The translations under genes and the position numbers were made by a program. A stretch of DNA of 35,204 bases from Desulfuromusa sp. (GTDB lineage: Bacteria; Desulfobacterota; Desulfuromonadia; Desulfuromonadales; Geopsychrobacteraceae): positions 1-35,204 of the forward strand of contig JAOZQF010000003.1 in NCBI GenBank assembly GCA_029932345.1, in the 5' to 3' direction. The notes beneath the pieces were generated by a model. That model was not told the DNA's origin. It saw only the letters and a list, made by a program, of their open reading frames with translations, and did not search any database. Shown here piece by piece: positions 4,977 to 12,033 of the stretch (positions within the stretch are counted from its first letter, which is position 1; the number at the start of each line of letters is the position of its first letter).

Positions 4977-5399
4977 TTACTGAGGATGTTTTTCTGATTG
5001 AATCAATAAAGTTTTGAGTTGTTCGATCTTATCTGTCAATTCCTGGTTTAGCTTGCCCAGCTGTTCTGTTTTGACTGTTAATTGCTTATTCAGTTCAATC
5101 AGGTGCTCCAGATCAAGAGAGTGTTGTTGCTCTGATTTAAGCAACTGGTCATTCTGCTCTTTTCTCTGTTCAATCTCTTGTGAGTAGAGAATGATCGTTT
5201 CAGCTCGGGAAGCCCAAATACTCTCTGGAAAATCGGCGACAAGTTTCTGAAAAGCATCGATCTGATGGCTCTCCTGAAACTCATCAAAAGCCTGGCAGAA
5301 CTCCTGCCGATCCGGCAATACCACCGGCTGTGGTTGTGGCTCAAAAACTGCACAACCGGTCAAAAGAAGGGGGACAAGAAAAAAAGCAAGCAGCTTCAT
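4977..5399 (-). CDS. Putative lipoprotein with coiled-coil C-terminus
   Basis: Signal peptide with lipobox 'LLLTGC'; heptad-like Glu/Leu/Gln-rich C-terminus. 4 bp overlap with the upstream GGDEF gene. Confidence 0.7.
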   Translation of the reverse strand: MKLLAFFLVPLLLTGCAVFEPQPQPVVLPDRQEFCQAFDEFQESHQIDAFQKLVADFPESIWASRAETIILYSQEIEQRKEQNDQLLKSEQQHSLDLEHLIELNKQLTVKTEQLGKLNQELTDKIEQLKTLLIQSEKHPQ

Positions 5400-6724
5400 A
5401 ACTCTTTTTTCCCTTCCAGCATATAATTACTCCCTTCCTGAATTTTCAAATACTCCTTAACCCTCGCACAGTCCTGACTGATCGCCAAGCGTGAAGGGTA
5501 ATCGTAGCGATCTGATGCAATTACGGCGATCGATATGGTCATTAATGAAAAGGTACGGACAACCCCATAACGGTCTTCACCGATAAAAGAGCCGGCGGCT
5601 CGATCTTCAGCATTATAAAAGGATGGCACCAACTCAGTAAATCCAGCAATAATTTTCTGCGCCAGGAATTCTCCTGAATCGAGACTGCTCAACACAACAT
5701 AATCATCACCACCAATATGTCCAACCAGATCCTGTGAACACCCGTACTCCCCGACAACCTGCTTAAGGAGCTCTCCAACCCTTGTCAGGACATCACTGCC
5801 CGCCTTGTACCCGTAACGATCGCCATAAACTTTGAAGTTATCCAGATCAATATAGAGATGAGAAAATGGCTCTTTTTTACTAATTCGCGTTTCAATTTCA
5901 CGTTCAATTGCGAGATTCCCTGGTAATAGAGTGAGGGGATTGGTGTCCAGATGCAACTGTTCCAGCTCACTTAGCTTTTCTCCCATCCGCGCGAAATCAT
6001 TAGCTAATTGTGCAAATTCGTCATTTCCAGAGATTTCAGGGTAATGATCGAATCGTCCCGCAGATATTCTTTGTGTTGCTTTCTTGAGTTCTTTAACCGA
6101 ACGGTGGATACTTAGAATAACGGCTATTGAAACCGGAGCCGAAAGACAAATACCGAGCAAACTTAAAAAAGCCGTCATTTGAAAAGTATCGTTGGTATGT
6201 TGCGACAACCTGGCGAGTCCAGTATTGATTTTCTGTTGTTGCTGTTGTCTGAATTCTGCCAGATAATTTAACAAATGCCCGCGGAGAGGAACGGTCTTTT
6301 CATTGGACAACTGCTGCGCCTGAGACCAGTCGTCCCAGAACAAAAATTCAGTAAGCTGGTTATCTGCCTGCCGGTAGCTTTCAACTAATTTTGTTAATTT
6401 TCTCAGCTGATCCGAAACAGGCAGACGGTTTAAAGTTAAAGTATAGCGAATAAATTCATTGTTCCGGTTATGTCTTAATTCAGTCAGTGCCGGATCGCGA
6501 AGTATGAGTAGTTGCTTTTCAATATTTTCTTGAGCCAGAAGATTCTGTTGCAGATCACGCACCAATTCAAAAGTACGAAAGTCAACATTAACTAAATTTT
6601 CAGTATCACTGGTTTGCTGATGTAATCGAGAGAGGGCAAAACCAATCGCAAAAAGACTAAAAATCACAACCACCAGATAACCGATAATCACTTTTTTAGT
6701 TATGGTTGAAAATAATTTAAACAT
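5396..6724 (-). CDS. Membrane sensor GGDEF protein (TM - extracytoplasmic helical region - TM - HAMP - GGDEF)
   Basis: Two TM segments, HAMP-like 'HRSVKELKKATQRISAGRFDHYPEISGNDEFAQLANDFARM', and GGDEF domain with 'IDLDNFKVYGDRYGYKAGSDVL' and 'VGHIGGDDYVVL'. Confidence 0.9.
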   Translation of the reverse strand: MFKLFSTITKKVIIGYLVVVIFSLFAIGFALSRLHQQTSDTENLVNVDFRTFELVRDLQQNLLAQENIEKQLLILRDPALTELRHNRNNEFIRYTLTLNRLPVSDQLRKLTKLVESYRQADNQLTEFLFWDDWSQAQQLSNEKTVPLRGHLLNYLAEFRQQQQQKINTGLARLSQHTNDTFQMTAFLSLLGICLSAPVSIAVILSIHRSVKELKKATQRISAGRFDHYPEISGNDEFAQLANDFARMGEKLSELEQLHLDTNPLTLLPGNLAIEREIETRISKKEPFSHLYIDLDNFKVYGDRYGYKAGSDVLTRVGELLKQVVGEYGCSQDLVGHIGGDDYVVLSSLDSGEFLAQKIIAGFTELVPSFYNAEDRAAGSFIGEDRYGVVRTFSLMTISIAVIASDRYDYPSRLAISQDCARVKEYLKIQEGSNYMLEGKKEL

Positions 6725-6860: not shown

Positions 6861-7568
6861 CTATATCCCCAAGTAGGCCTTTCTAACATCATCATTGGCC
6901 AACAGATTATCAGCAGAATCAACCAGAGAAATACGGCCATTCTCCATAACATAACCCCGATCAGCCAGTTTTAATGCTTGATTGGCATTTTGCTCTACCA
7001 GGAAGATTGTTGTATTACTCTCCTTGTTAATCTGACGAATAATCTCGAAAATCTGTTTAATAATCAACGGTGCCAAACCCAGAGAAGGTTCGTCAAGGAG
7101 TAAGACCCGAGGACGTGCCATCAGTGCGCGAGAAATTGCCAGCATCTGCTGCTCACCCCCCGACAGAGTTCCACCAAGCTGGGTTCGACGTTTTTCAAGG
7201 ATTGGAAACAGCGTCATAACATAGTTCATATCCTGCTGAATCAGGCGCTTATTCTTACGTAAAAAAGCACCCATTTCCAAGTTTTCCTGGACTGTCAAAT
7301 CAGGAAATATACGCCGCCCCTCTGGGACCTGAACAATCCCTCTTTCAACAATTTTCTCGGCACCCAACCCTTTTATAGAATCACCATCCAGAAGGATATC
7401 ACCGTGACGTGGTGGAGTAATCCCGCATATCGACATTAAGGTCGTCGTTTTACCTGCCCCATTGGCACCGATAAGAGCAACAATCTCACCCTCTGCAATC
7501 TCAATAGAGACATCTTTTAGAGCTTGGATATTACCGTAATAGGTCTGAATATTTTGGATCTTAAGCAT
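6861..7568 (-). CDS. livF: Branched-chain amino acid ABC transporter ATP-binding protein LivF
   Basis: Walker A 'GANGAGKTT', signature 'LSGGEQQML', Walker B 'RVLLLDEPSLGLAP'. Position in the liv operon. Confidence 0.93.
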   Translation of the reverse strand: MLKIQNIQTYYGNIQALKDVSIEIAEGEIVALIGANGAGKTTTLMSICGITPPRHGDILLDGDSIKGLGAEKIVERGIVQVPEGRRIFPDLTVQENLEMGAFLRKNKRLIQQDMNYVMTLFPILEKRRTQLGGTLSGGEQQMLAISRALMARPRVLLLDEPSLGLAPLIIKQIFEIIRQINKESNTTIFLVEQNANQALKLADRGYVMENGRISLVDSADNLLANDDVRKAYLGI

Positions 7569-7596
7569 AATAGTCTCGTTATTTTTATAAGGTTTC

Positions 7597-7643
7597 AGGA
7601 ATCAGGTTCAAGGCTTAAACCTGAATCCTTGAACCTGATTCCT
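7597..7643. repeat. Palindromic repeat unit between livG and livF
   Basis: Perfect 17-bp arms AGGAATCAGGTTCAAGG (7597-7613) / CCTTGAACCTGATTCCT (7627-7643). The loop contains AACCTGAATCC, a near-copy of the right arm. Confidence 0.75.
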
Positions 7644-7644
7644 T

Positions 7645-8442
7645 CTATTCCGTTTCCTCGCCCAGATAGGCCTCAACAACCTTCGGGTTGTCTTTGATCT
7701 CTTCGGGGCTCCCTTCAGCAATTTTCTTACCATATTCCATAACATAAATAGGATCGGAGATATTCATAACCAATTTCATATCATGTTCAATCAACAGGAT
7801 CGCAATCTGTTCCTCCGCACTGATCTTACAGATCAGTTGTTCCAGATCAGACGTTTCTTGTGGATTCATCCCCGCAGCCGGCTCATCCAACAACAACAGA
7901 AAGGGATCAGTTGCCATTGCCCGGGCAATTTCCAGACGTCGCTGTGCTCCATAGGGGAGATTTTTTGAAAATTCATTGGCAAAATCAGCAAGACCAACTT
8001 TTTCGAGGAGATGATAACTCGACTCAACAATCTGCTGTTCTTCATCACGAACTGACTTACTGCGGATGATCGCTTTAAAGATTCCCGAATTGGTCCGACA
8101 GTGCCGTCCAATCATGACATTTTCCAGAACCGTCATGTCGGGAAACAGGCGAATATTTTGAAAGGTCCGCGCCAAACCCATTTCTGTGACTTTGTTCGGT
8201 TTCAGCCCGTTCAAACGACGCGTCTTCAAACCTTTAGGGTGGAGCAGGATATCACCCTTGCTTGGGTTGTAAATACCGGTGATACAGTTGAAAAATGTAG
8301 TTTTCCCAGCACCATTTGGACCGATCAATGCGGCGATATCACCTTCATAGACTTCCAAAGTGACACTGTCGACAGCCCGAAGACCACCAAAATCCATCGT
8401 CAGCCCTTTGACTTCAAGTAGCTTATGTTTATTCTCAGCCAT
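7645..8442 (-). CDS. livG: Branched-chain amino acid ABC transporter ATP-binding protein LivG
   Basis: 'LIGPNGAGKTTFFNCITGIYNPSKGDI', 'ARTFQNIRLFPDMTVLENVMIG', 'PFLLLLDEPAAGMNPQET'. Confidence 0.94.
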   Translation of the reverse strand: MAENKHKLLEVKGLTMDFGGLRAVDSVTLEVYEGDIAALIGPNGAGKTTFFNCITGIYNPSKGDILLHPKGLKTRRLNGLKPNKVTEMGLARTFQNIRLFPDMTVLENVMIGRHCRTNSGIFKAIIRSKSVRDEEQQIVESSYHLLEKVGLADFANEFSKNLPYGAQRRLEIARAMATDPFLLLLDEPAAGMNPQETSDLEQLICKISAEEQIAILLIEHDMKLVMNISDPIYVMEYGKKIAEGSPEEIKDNPKVVEAYLGEETE

Positions 8443-9661
8443 TATTGATTTTTTCCTTCGAACCTTTATATTTGTACGTCTGCCGGAGATTACTGATAAT
8501 CCCCTGGGGACGGAAAATCATCATCAGCACCATCGCTGCCCCAAATGCCAACATTCGATATTCAGAGAACGCGCGCATATACTCGGGGAGTAATATCAGT
8601 AAAAACGCGCCGAGAATAACCCCGAGAATAGAACCCATACCGCCCAGAACGACAATAGACAAAATGATCGCCGACTCCATAAAGGTAAAGCTGGCGGGAT
8701 TGATAAATGTTGTTTTAGAAGCAAACAGAACCCCGACCATACCGGCCCAAAACGCACCGAGTGCGTAAGCGGAGAGCTTGGTTCGAGCGATATCGATACC
8801 CATAGCAACGCAAGCAATCTCATCTTCACGCATGGCAATCCAGGCACGACCAATCCGGCTGTTTCTTAGACGGGTCGTCACCAGAATAGTAAAAATAACC
8901 ATCGCAATCATAATGTAATAGATATAAATAGTGGAATCTGCCAGGCTTAAATCCATGCCAAAAAAACTAGGCTTATCAATATTGGCAATCCCACTCGGAC
9001 CAAAAGACAAAGCATCCCAGTTTTCCATGACAACCTTGAAGATCATCCCGAAACCGAGAGTGACAATCGCCAGATAATCACCACGCAACCGGAGAATTGG
9101 GAAACCAAGGATAACACCGAAGAGACAACCAAGGATTCCACCAATCGGCAGCGTAATCCAGAAACCAAGATCGAAGTGATGGTTGAGCAACGCATAGGTA
9201 TAAGCACCGACGCCAAAGAAAGCCACAAATCCCAGATCCAGCAATCCGGCCAGGCCGACAGTGATGTTTAATCCGAGCCCGAGGACGACATAAATCAAAG
9301 CCGAAATCATAATGGTGCTCTGATAGGTATCAAAAACCAACGGAAAAACCAGTGCGGCGAGTAAAATCACCCCCATCGCTTTGTAGCGAAAGGACATATC
9401 CTCAAGCAACAGTTGTGTTTTACTGCGGGTTTCCCCACCTTCATCAGCAACTTGCTTTCTTACCTGCTGTCGCGCCAGCATGTAACGCCAGAGATACGAC
9501 AAGACAAAAGCGCCAATCGCCACCCAGAGCATATTCATCCAGCGCCAGACAACCACCTGATCCATGGTATTGACACGCACAGCCAGCAACGGAAAGGTCA
9601 GAAAGACAAACCAGAGTGATACCAAAATTGATTGTTTAAAATTTTTCAGCATACCCGTCAC
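8435..9661 (-). CDS. livM: Branched-chain amino acid ABC transporter permease LivM
   Basis: 'LGLNITVGLAGLLDLGFVAFFGVGAYTYALL', 'LRLRGDYLAIVTLGFGMI', 'GRAWIAMREDEIACVAMGID'. Confidence 0.93.
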   Translation of the reverse strand: MTGMLKNFKQSILVSLWFVFLTFPLLAVRVNTMDQVVVWRWMNMLWVAIGAFVLSYLWRYMLARQQVRKQVADEGGETRSKTQLLLEDMSFRYKAMGVILLAALVFPLVFDTYQSTIMISALIYVVLGLGLNITVGLAGLLDLGFVAFFGVGAYTYALLNHHFDLGFWITLPIGGILGCLFGVILGFPILRLRGDYLAIVTLGFGMIFKVVMENWDALSFGPSGIANIDKPSFFGMDLSLADSTIYIYYIMIAMVIFTILVTTRLRNSRIGRAWIAMREDEIACVAMGIDIARTKLSAYALGAFWAGMVGVLFASKTTFINPASFTFMESAIILSIVVLGGMGSILGVILGAFLLILLPEYMRAFSEYRMLAFGAAMVLMMIFRPQGIISNLRQTYKYKGSKEKINNG

Positions 9662-9663
9662 CT

Positions 9664-10566
9664 TTAAACCTTTTGTTTATGGGACTTGCCGAGGATTCCG
9701 GCAGGCCGCAGGATCAGGATAAGAACCAGCAGACCAAAGGTAAAAACATCCTCATAGTCACTGGAAATATAACCGGCAGCAAAGCTTTCTGCCCAACCGA
9801 GAACCAGTCCTCCGAGCACCGCCCCCGGAATGGAACCGATACCACCCAGCACCGCAGCAGTAAAAGCCTTTACCCCGGCCAGGAAACCAATATAAAAATT
9901 GACCTGACCAATGTATGAAGCGACCAGAACACCGCCAATTGCAGCCAGAGCTGAGCCAATTATAAACGTCAGTGAAATAATCCGATCTACATTAACCCCA
10001 ACCAGACGCGCCATATTCATATCCTGCTGGGTCGCACGCATCGCCTTTCCAACTCTGGTTTTCTTGATCAACAGGGTCAGAAGAATCATCGTCACAACAG
10101 TTGTTATCAGGATGACCAGCTCCGGAGAACCAATAATATGAGCAACCGGCTCCATGAAATCAAAATCAGGGATCAACCGGGGAAAGGGTAGAAAATCAGG
10201 AGTTTGCGCCAACAACACATAATTCTGCAGAAATATTGACATTCCGATAGCACTGATTAACGGTGATAGGCGTGGGGCACCACGCAACGGACGATAGGCA
10301 ACTTTCTCTAAAGTATAGCCATAGGCGCAAGAATAGATGATGGCAATAACACCGGCCAGGATCAGGATTGAGACCCCGCTTAAACCGTAGATAGTACAGA
10401 CCCCGGCAACAATCAGCGCAACAAACGCACCGATCATGTAGATCTCCCCGTGGGCAAAGTTGATCAACTGAATGATGCCATAAACCATGGTGTAACCCAA
10501 AGCAATCAAGGCATAGATACTCCCCCGCGTTAATCCACCAAAGAAGAGTTGAAGAAAATATTCCAT
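9664..10566 (-). CDS. livH: Branched-chain amino acid ABC transporter permease LivH
   Basis: 'GLTRGSIYALIALGYTMVYGIIQLINFAHGEIYMIGAF', 'GKAMRATQQDMNMARLVGVNVDRIISLTFIIGSALAAIGGVL'. Confidence 0.94.
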   Translation of the reverse strand: MEYFLQLFFGGLTRGSIYALIALGYTMVYGIIQLINFAHGEIYMIGAFVALIVAGVCTIYGLSGVSILILAGVIAIIYSCAYGYTLEKVAYRPLRGAPRLSPLISAIGMSIFLQNYVLLAQTPDFLPFPRLIPDFDFMEPVAHIIGSPELVILITTVVTMILLTLLIKKTRVGKAMRATQQDMNMARLVGVNVDRIISLTFIIGSALAAIGGVLVASYIGQVNFYIGFLAGVKAFTAAVLGGIGSIPGAVLGGLVLGWAESFAAGYISSDYEDVFTFGLLVLILILRPAGILGKSHKQKV

Positions 10567-10588
10567 AATTAATGACCAACCGTTGGGG

Positions 10589-10607
10589 GGAAAATTTAAA
10601 ATTTTCC
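10589..10607. promoter_or_regulatory. 19-bp perfect palindrome upstream of livH (operator-like)
   Basis: GGAAAATTT-A-AAATTTTCC, about 22 bp upstream of the livH start on the - strand. Confidence 0.35.
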
Positions 10608-10621
10608 AGTTTTAAGACAAT

Positions 10622-10655
10622 TTCAGGGGACTGGTAAAAATACCAGCCCCCTGAA
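10622..10655 (-). terminator. Strong hairpin between the substrate-binding-protein gene and livH (partial terminator or mRNA-stabilising hairpin)
   Basis: TTCAGGGGACTGGTA-AAAA-TACCAGCCCCCTGAA, 14/15 paired with a 4-nt loop. Only a weak T-tract on the - strand. Confidence 0.6.
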
Positions 10656-10714
10656 AGGGCTTCATCAGCAGCGCAAAAAGATCAGAGTAAACGCTGTCTG
10701 TTCATCAATGATGC

Positions 10715-11830
10715 CTACTTAAGTTCGGTAAATGCGCCGTTCTCAACTTTGTAAACTGAGAAACCAACACCTTCAGCATCACCTTTACTGTCAAACTTGA
10801 TCTTACCGACTGGAGTCTCAACGTACTCAGTGCGCAGAACTTTTGTCACTGCATCATAATCGGTGGAACCGGCTTTTTCGATCGCATTCAACAACGCCAG
10901 AGCAGCGGAATAACCTTCCTGATAAAATGCACCCGGCTCAGCACCGTACTCAGCTTTAAACTCAGCGGTTGCAGCAGCATTGAGAGGAATACTGGAAAGA
11001 TCTTGAGGACCTGTGACATAGGCACCGTTTGCAGCATCACCAGCAACCTTAAGGAAACTGTCATCCTTTACGCCATCATCAGAGATAAAAATGGTCTTAA
11101 GCCGCTTACGCTGCATTTGTGAAACTAATTTGGAAGCCTCAGGATGATAACCACCAAAAATCAAAGCTTCAGCCTTATATCTACCGAGTTTCGCAACAAT
11201 GGAGCTGTAATCCATGGCACCCGGGGTAATCCCTTCGTACAGAACCACTTCCACTTTACCAGACTCATCCAGATATTTTTTGGCAAATTCGGCAAAACCT
11301 TTACCGTAGTCACCTTTGTCATGCAGGACAGCAACTTTTTTCACGCCAAGCTTATTGATGGCAAAATCAACAGCCATTTTTGCCTGCATGTCATCAGAAG
11401 CGATAGTACGGAAAAAGTTAGGATAATCACCACTTTGAGTCAAAGGTGGATTGGTCGCCGAAGGTGACATGACTGGGATTTTGGCATCTTTATAGATACC
11501 AAGAGCAGCCTTGGTAGCACCGGAACAGATATGGCCAAGAACGACATCGGCACCATCAGTCACCAACTTGGTTGCTGTGTTGGTGGCAATCTCTGGTTTA
11601 CATTGATCATCTTGAATCAACAGCTCAACTTGCTTACCAAGAACACCGCCATTGGCATTGATCTTCTTGACAACCAGCTGTGCAGCCTTCATAGCAGGGA
11701 TACCATAGGGAGCCAGGTCACCACTGTGGGGACCAGCAACACCAAGCTTAATCGTATCTGCAGCAAATCCAGTTGCTGCTATGCTCAAAAAGAGAGCGAA
11801 GGTTGAAATCAAAACGGTCATTTTTTTCAT
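10715..11830 (-). CDS. livK: Branched-chain amino acid ABC transporter substrate-binding protein (LivJ/LivK-like)
   Basis: Start MKKMTVLISTFALFLSIAATGFAA (signal peptide) with CAGGAGGCAC upstream. 'IKLGVAGPHSGDLAPYGIPAMKAAQLVVKKINANGGVLGKQVELLIQDDQCKPE'. Confidence 0.93.
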   Translation of the reverse strand: MKKMTVLISTFALFLSIAATGFAADTIKLGVAGPHSGDLAPYGIPAMKAAQLVVKKINANGGVLGKQVELLIQDDQCKPEIATNTATKLVTDGADVVLGHICSGATKAALGIYKDAKIPVMSPSATNPPLTQSGDYPNFFRTIASDDMQAKMAVDFAINKLGVKKVAVLHDKGDYGKGFAEFAKKYLDESGKVEVVLYEGITPGAMDYSSIVAKLGRYKAEALIFGGYHPEASKLVSQMQRKRLKTIFISDDGVKDDSFLKVAGDAANGAYVTGPQDLSSIPLNAAATAEFKAEYGAEPGAFYQEGYSAALALLNAIEKAGSTDYDAVTKVLRTEYVETPVGKIKFDSKGDAEGVGFSVYKVENGAFTELK

Positions 11831-12033
11831 GTGTGCCTCCTGAAAATTAAAGTTGGGAAAAATACCGATAGATTTATCGAATAAATATGTATAATTCAAA
11901 GCACCGAAGTGGTCAAGAATAATTCTCACATATAAGAGAAACTGGTTAAAATATTCCCTATTTTAATTGTTTTCAGCCTTTTCTGGCTAAAATTCATCCC
12001 CCATATATCATCGTTATTAACCAAATTTCCGTT

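Follow-up and report, generated by a model that had tools for sequence, protein, structure and literature searches.

P0001, a 442-residue protein encoded on the minus strand (5396..6724) of the 35,204-nucleotide stretch of Desulfuromusa sp. DNA analysed here (the window), is probably an inner-membrane, HAMP-coupled Hypr dinucleotide cyclase, orthologous to GSU1937 of Geobacter sulfurreducens and with 3',3'-cGAMP as its main predicted product. This assignment starts from what was established directly, namely the sequence features of P0001, its orthology, the invariance of the catalytic residues and a conserved gene pair. A first-pass annotation had proposed a Hypr-like substitution and a possible cGAMP synthase, a proposal that the apparent orthology to GSU1937 largely supports. 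Beyond that proposal, we find a lineage-specific loss of a guanine-contacting Asn, a near family-wide loss of the I-site, a conserved lipoprotein gene and a separate GacA ortholog.

Domain organisation and active-site residues of P0001

The domain order of P0001 is transmembrane (TM) helix, helical periplasmic domain, TM helix, HAMP and GGDEF, and its translated minus strand contains YIDLDNFKVYGDRYGYKAGSDVL...CSQDLVGHIGGDDY. A hydrophobic stretch marks the first TM helix at approximately residues 10-32 (6629..6697, minus strand), for which AlphaFold2 predicts a helix at 2-75. A putative sensor domain follows at approximately residues 33-179 (6187..6628, minus strand; AlphaFold2 helices 78-100, 105-129 and 133-220), and its two flanking TM helices suggest that it lies in the periplasm. 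The HAMP domain covers residues 203-252 (5969..6118, minus strand; Pfam PF00672, 39 bits) and the GGDEF-fold catalytic domain residues 263-428 (5441..5938, minus strand; PF00990, 48.4 bits). Foldseek matches the model to WspR, SiaD, PleD and the GacA structure 6d9m, with E values of ~1e-7 to 1e-10. Residues 261-400 of this AlphaFold2 model are fairly confident (pLDDT of 10-residue blocks 76-93), the HAMP domain is weak and the model as a whole is poor (mean pLDDT 70.7, pTM 0.41). In such an arrangement, the periplasmic helical domain would steer, through HAMP, how the cytoplasmic GGDDY domain dimerises.

We placed the residues of P0001 by alignment to PleD, to GacA of G. metallireducens (GmGacA; PDB 6d9m) and to the GacA of its own genome. 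As the first-pass annotation had read them against PleD, Ser310 (5795..5797, minus strand) stands at D344 of PleD, equivalent to the Hypr selectivity residue Ser348 of GmGacA, and Gly301 (5822..5824, minus strand) at N335 of PleD and Asn339 of GmGacA, where a guanine contact is lost. That annotation had named an Asp at the selectivity site as the contrary outcome; alignment to PleD and to the Hypr enzyme GacA gives Ser. The sequence CSQD, without Arg, indeed occupies the RxxD I-site position (5729..5740, minus strand). Asp293 (5846..5848, minus strand) corresponds to the metal ligand D327 of PleD and is invariant in 92/92 family members; the range first proposed for the substitution, 5785-5845, holds the right residues and starts one codon after this Asp, a trivial offset. 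The signature loop GGDDY (5699..5713, minus strand), aligned to GGEEF of PleD, had been called atypical: the motif is as described, and activity is reported for GGDDF in the same family. Nor is Ser310 a chance substitution, because Ser is fixed in 92/92 family members, the GGDEF and HAMP domains score 48.4 and 39 bits, and dN/dS of the gene against close orthologs is 0.05-0.1, indicating strong purifying selection.

Which nucleotides would such an active site accept? We propose that Ser310, in place of the guanine-selective Asp, allows both GTP and ATP to be used. In the Goldilocks model, enzymes with Ser348 need Asp in the third position of the signature loop (PMC6456294); P0001 has Asp there (D340), a residue invariant in the family. 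At the cross-dimer site, Tyr304 in GmGacA, P0001 carries Asn270 and thus a non-Arg residue, as expected of a Hypr enzyme, yet the same Asn is found in 12/12 D344 relatives and is not Hypr-specific. P0001 departs from the original Hypr set, GGDE[F/Y], in missing the fourth-position Glu. This motif no longer excludes P0001, because activity has been reported for GSU1937, its GGDDF ortholog. The Asn at N335/N339, replaced by Gly301 in P0001, is common to the tested Hypr enzymes and not a stated part of their definition. Finally, lacking the I-site Arg, P0001 would be expected to be free of the feedback by c-di-GMP to which GacA is subject.

Orthology to GSU1937 and conservation across the class

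GSU1937 was reported in 2022 as the second Hypr enzyme of G. sulfurreducens, with TM and HAMP segments, the Hypr Ser348 and a GGDDF motif (PMC8835794). When it is deleted, the signal of a cGAMP reporter drops, by ~25% with fumarate and by ~70% with Fe(III) citrate. In E. coli, a fusion carrying its domain produced both cGAMP and c-di-GMP, and a change to GADDF abolished this (PMC8835794). In that host the wild-type protein and three fusions were inactive, fusion F4 alone being active (PMC8835794).

Translated, the primers published for deleting GSU1937 give VQKLIAS and STPGSNY. Members of the family from Geobacterales start with ...LVQKLIASY and end with ...PGSNY, and the corresponding termini of P0001 read ITKKVIIGY and ..EGSNY. 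Since the primer peptides fit the family ends, we treat P0001 as the GSU1937 ortholog, which it appears to be from primer-encoded termini, architecture and the Hypr Ser. A search for the primer in our genome set, which apparently does not include G. sulfurreducens, returned a sole match, with 2 mismatches and in another family. G372 of GSU1937 was set aside as a check on the position of the motif, since its number may be that of GacA. GSU1937 and P0001 share the TM-HAMP-GGDD[F/Y] order, the Hypr Ser, the terminal peptide motifs and the lack of EAL or HD-GYP domains. Unlike GSU1937, P0001 has Gly for the N335 Asn, a motif ending in Tyr and a gene downstream of livHMGF; its overall identity to Geobacterales members is ~33-38%.

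Relatives of P0001 at E <= 1e-40 occur in 220/277 genomes of the class, usually one per genome, as holds for the GSU1937 family class-wide. Our alignment comprises 104 family and outgroup sequences, 92 of them with Ser at 344. D327, K332, S344, GGDD and K442 (PleD numbering) are invariant in 92/92 aligned family members, whose motif has Y as its last residue in 67 and F in 25. The I-site Arg is gone in 91/92, and only L088 keeps RxxD.

Could P0001 be a catalytically dead GGDEF-like domain, retained as a nucleotide-binding or signalling scaffold? GGDDY is without the fourth-position Glu, the general base, the second base contact is missing as well, and inactivity is known for other proteins with GGDDF, PA3258 among them (PMC8835794). 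We consider a dead domain unlikely, given that none of the metal- and phosphate-binding positions examined varies across the class, that purifying selection is strong and that the GGDDF ortholog is active (PMC8835794).

An active P0001 that in practice makes c-di-GMP alone is harder still to credit, and we assign it only a very slight chance. The cGAMP reporter fell by 25-70% on deletion of GSU1937 (PMC8835794), and the guanine-favouring cross-dimer Arg is absent from P0001. Yet GSU3350 remained a strict diguanylate cyclase after its D was changed to S (PMC6456294), the GSU1937 fusion also yielded c-di-GMP (PMC8835794), and the riboswitches of the Desulfuromusa genome itself are of the G20 type. 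For Desulfuromusa sp. we favour 3',3'-cGAMP as the likely main product of P0001, accompanied by some c-di-GMP.

The genome also encodes a Rec-GGDEF protein (L007, 613-2007 of G000:C228) with Ser at 344, a GGDEF motif and an RDVD I-site; among solved structures, GacA matches it best (6d9m, 1.5e-49). From these sequence features, L007 is a GacA ortholog alongside P0001, and the Hypr pair of this genome thus corresponds to that of G. sulfurreducens. The idea that P0001 is the sole Ser344 protein of its genome was accordingly rejected. GacA (GSU1658 / Gmet_1914, PDB 6d9m; PMC6456294) resembles P0001 in the Hypr Ser, the third-position Asp and the GGDEF fold. Unlike P0001, it is a soluble Rec-GGDEF protein with an intact I-site, Asn339, Tyr304 and GGDE[F/Y], and no downstream lipoprotein gene was found with it; the GacA orthologs inspected keep the RxxD I-site.

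Loss of the second guanine contact

Guanine is contacted by two residues, of which N335 is one (PMC6456294, PMC12943098), and Asn339 of GmGacA touches the base (PMC6456294). In the family, Ser, Gly or Ala replaces it in 50/92 members and Asn is kept in 42/92, whereas none of 40 GacA orthologs and none of 12 D344 relatives has lost it; Fisher values for these counts are indicative only, as related rows are not independent. The losses need at least four changes on the tree, and P0001 belongs to an Asn-less lineage. With Gly in place of the base-contacting Asn, we infer that affinity or selectivity may differ in P0001.

If selectivity were altered outright, with both guanine contacts gone, ATP might be favoured (yielding c-di-AMP) or other purines accepted. 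The repeated loss of N335, set against its retention in GacA orthologs and D344 relatives, agrees with this, as does the report of some c-di-AMP from the Hypr enzyme Bd0367 of Bdellovibrio bacteriovorus (PMC9140294). Like the P0001 family, Bd0367 has the Hypr Ser (S214), and its profile is promiscuous; unlike P0001, it conserves the I-site and comes from a different organism group (PMC9140294). However, the Asn contact is on the sugar face, so its loss may only lower affinity, and A20 riboswitches persist in Asn-less lineages, although GacA is present there too. We therefore regard such a shift as highly unlikely and retain cGAMP as the predicted main product.

The selectivity site itself varies in one genus (g4), where four paralogs (L080-L083, from genomes G033, G027, G035 and G030) have Asp at 344 although they branch within the Ser344 clade; in G030 and G035 the Ser and Asp forms occur together. 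In view of the S348D result with GacA (PMC6456294), these paralogs may be natural cases of a return to making c-di-GMP.

A conserved lipoprotein gene follows the Hypr gene

Directly after the P0001 gene, with a 4-nt overlap, lies the gene for P0002, a lipoprotein of 140 residues (4977..5399, minus strand) that is a conserved partner. A lipobox protein of 90-230 residues follows 54/70 Hypr-GGDDF genes versus 0/40 gacA genes; the background rate, 29/292 long ORFs in the same loci, is an over-estimate since those loci include Hypr genes. By hhalign (98.2%, E 4e-14), the mature lipoproteins of the Desulfuromusa family and of Geobacterales are homologous, in a comparison restricted to mature parts and to cleanly separated groups. 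The mature part of P0002-type proteins resembles TPR in one segment and a coiled coil in its tail, and P0002 matches no Pfam or NCBIfam family at cut-off. The 2022 paper on GSU1937 does not mention a lipoprotein (PMC8835794); this partner of Hypr-GGDDF enzymes is undescribed so far.

What might P0002 do? Lipoproteins can modulate membrane enzymes of the HAMP-GGDEF type, as the precedent of YfiB/YfiN shows, and YfiN/DgcN with YfiB (YfiBNR) resembles P0001/P0002 in that such an enzyme is encoded with a lipoprotein. DgcN is also the top NCBIfam match of P0001 by E-value, far below cut-off. The systems differ in that YfiN is a c-di-GMP enzyme and P0002 resembles a TPR and coiled-coil protein. Beside P0001/P0002 no YfiR-like gene was seen, and the comparison with YfiBNR is an analogy only. 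By this likeness we predict that P0002 controls P0001, and the co-encoded lipoprotein would probably do so by modulating the periplasmic domain.

Riboswitches and genomic neighbourhood

In GEMM-I riboswitches, A at position 20 marks cGAMP (GEMM-Ib) and G20 marks c-di-GMP. The first-pass annotation had suggested a search for GEMM-Ib elements, and its outcome is divided. Three GEMM-I aptamers occur in the genome of Desulfuromusa sp., each carrying G where Vc2 has G20, and no A20 riboswitch was found in this assembly (1.94 Mb, 88.5% complete, 235 contigs). The strict A20 pattern occurs in 83/277 genomes of the class, four Desulfuromusa congeners included, and Rfam confirms these four elements as GEMM-I. 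Because the assembly is incomplete, riboswitches neither prove nor exclude the use of cGAMP in Desulfuromusa sp.; one paper, moreover, describes G20 as a selectivity factor and not a hard filter (PMC9262584). Two of the aptamers (L011, 1477-1555 and 1717-1795, G000:C230) form a tandem with G20 and A47 upstream of genes for type IV pilus minor pilin-like proteins, and a weaker one (L013, 1501-1580, G000:C195; 45.9 bits) lies upstream of a gene for a large repetitive secreted-type protein. We also considered genomes with an A20 riboswitch and no GacA as a natural experiment and abandoned it: 9/10 checked have a clear GacA ortholog, G099 (89% complete) alone being without one.

Upstream of the P0001 gene on the same strand lie livKHMGF genes for a branched-chain amino acid ABC transporter (6861..11929, minus strand). 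Only the Desulfuromusa family has the P0001/P0002-type pair downstream of livHMGF, with both on one strand. As a general trait, liv linkage was rejected, being absent from other families and from the Geobacterales loci examined. Elsewhere in the order, several families have the Hypr-GGDDF gene after ruvC-ruvA-ruvB-like genes (L203-L212 and similar loci), and in some Geobacterales loci (L223, L224 and L227 among those noted) it lies near nadC-birA-coaX-like genes.

How do these observations weigh on the product of P0001? The invariant catalytic set, the active GSU1937, the third-position Asp, the non-Arg cross-dimer Asn, the presence of GacA, the A20 elements of sister genomes and the lipoprotein pairing speak for cGAMP. 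On the other side stand the fourth-position Asp, usual in inactive domains, Gly301 and a genome of its own without an A20 match; taken overall, we still hold cGAMP synthesis by P0001 to be probable.

Implications

Only a handful of GGDEF enzymes that make cGAMP have been assayed so far. Our data suggest GSU1937-type enzymes as a class-wide second input of cGAMP without an I-site, with a named lipoprotein partner accessible to deletion studies. The natural Asn-to-Gly/Ser/Ala variants and the Ser-to-Asp reversion offer material for dissecting nucleotide choice in GGDEF enzymes. A bolder scheme, which we think improbable though worth stating, is a Hypr lineage without both guanine-recognising residues and the I-site that forms a relaxed-purine, feedback-free synthase under its own envelope lipoprotein, tied in the Desulfuromusa family to branched-chain amino acid uptake. 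In G. sulfurreducens, cGAMP rises in response to leucine, isoleucine, alanine, methionine and cysteine. This coincidence is a lead and not evidence, because liv linkage is not seen in the Geobacterales loci examined; if the bolder scheme holds, the liv-tied pair might bear on this response of cGAMP to amino acids in Geobacter.
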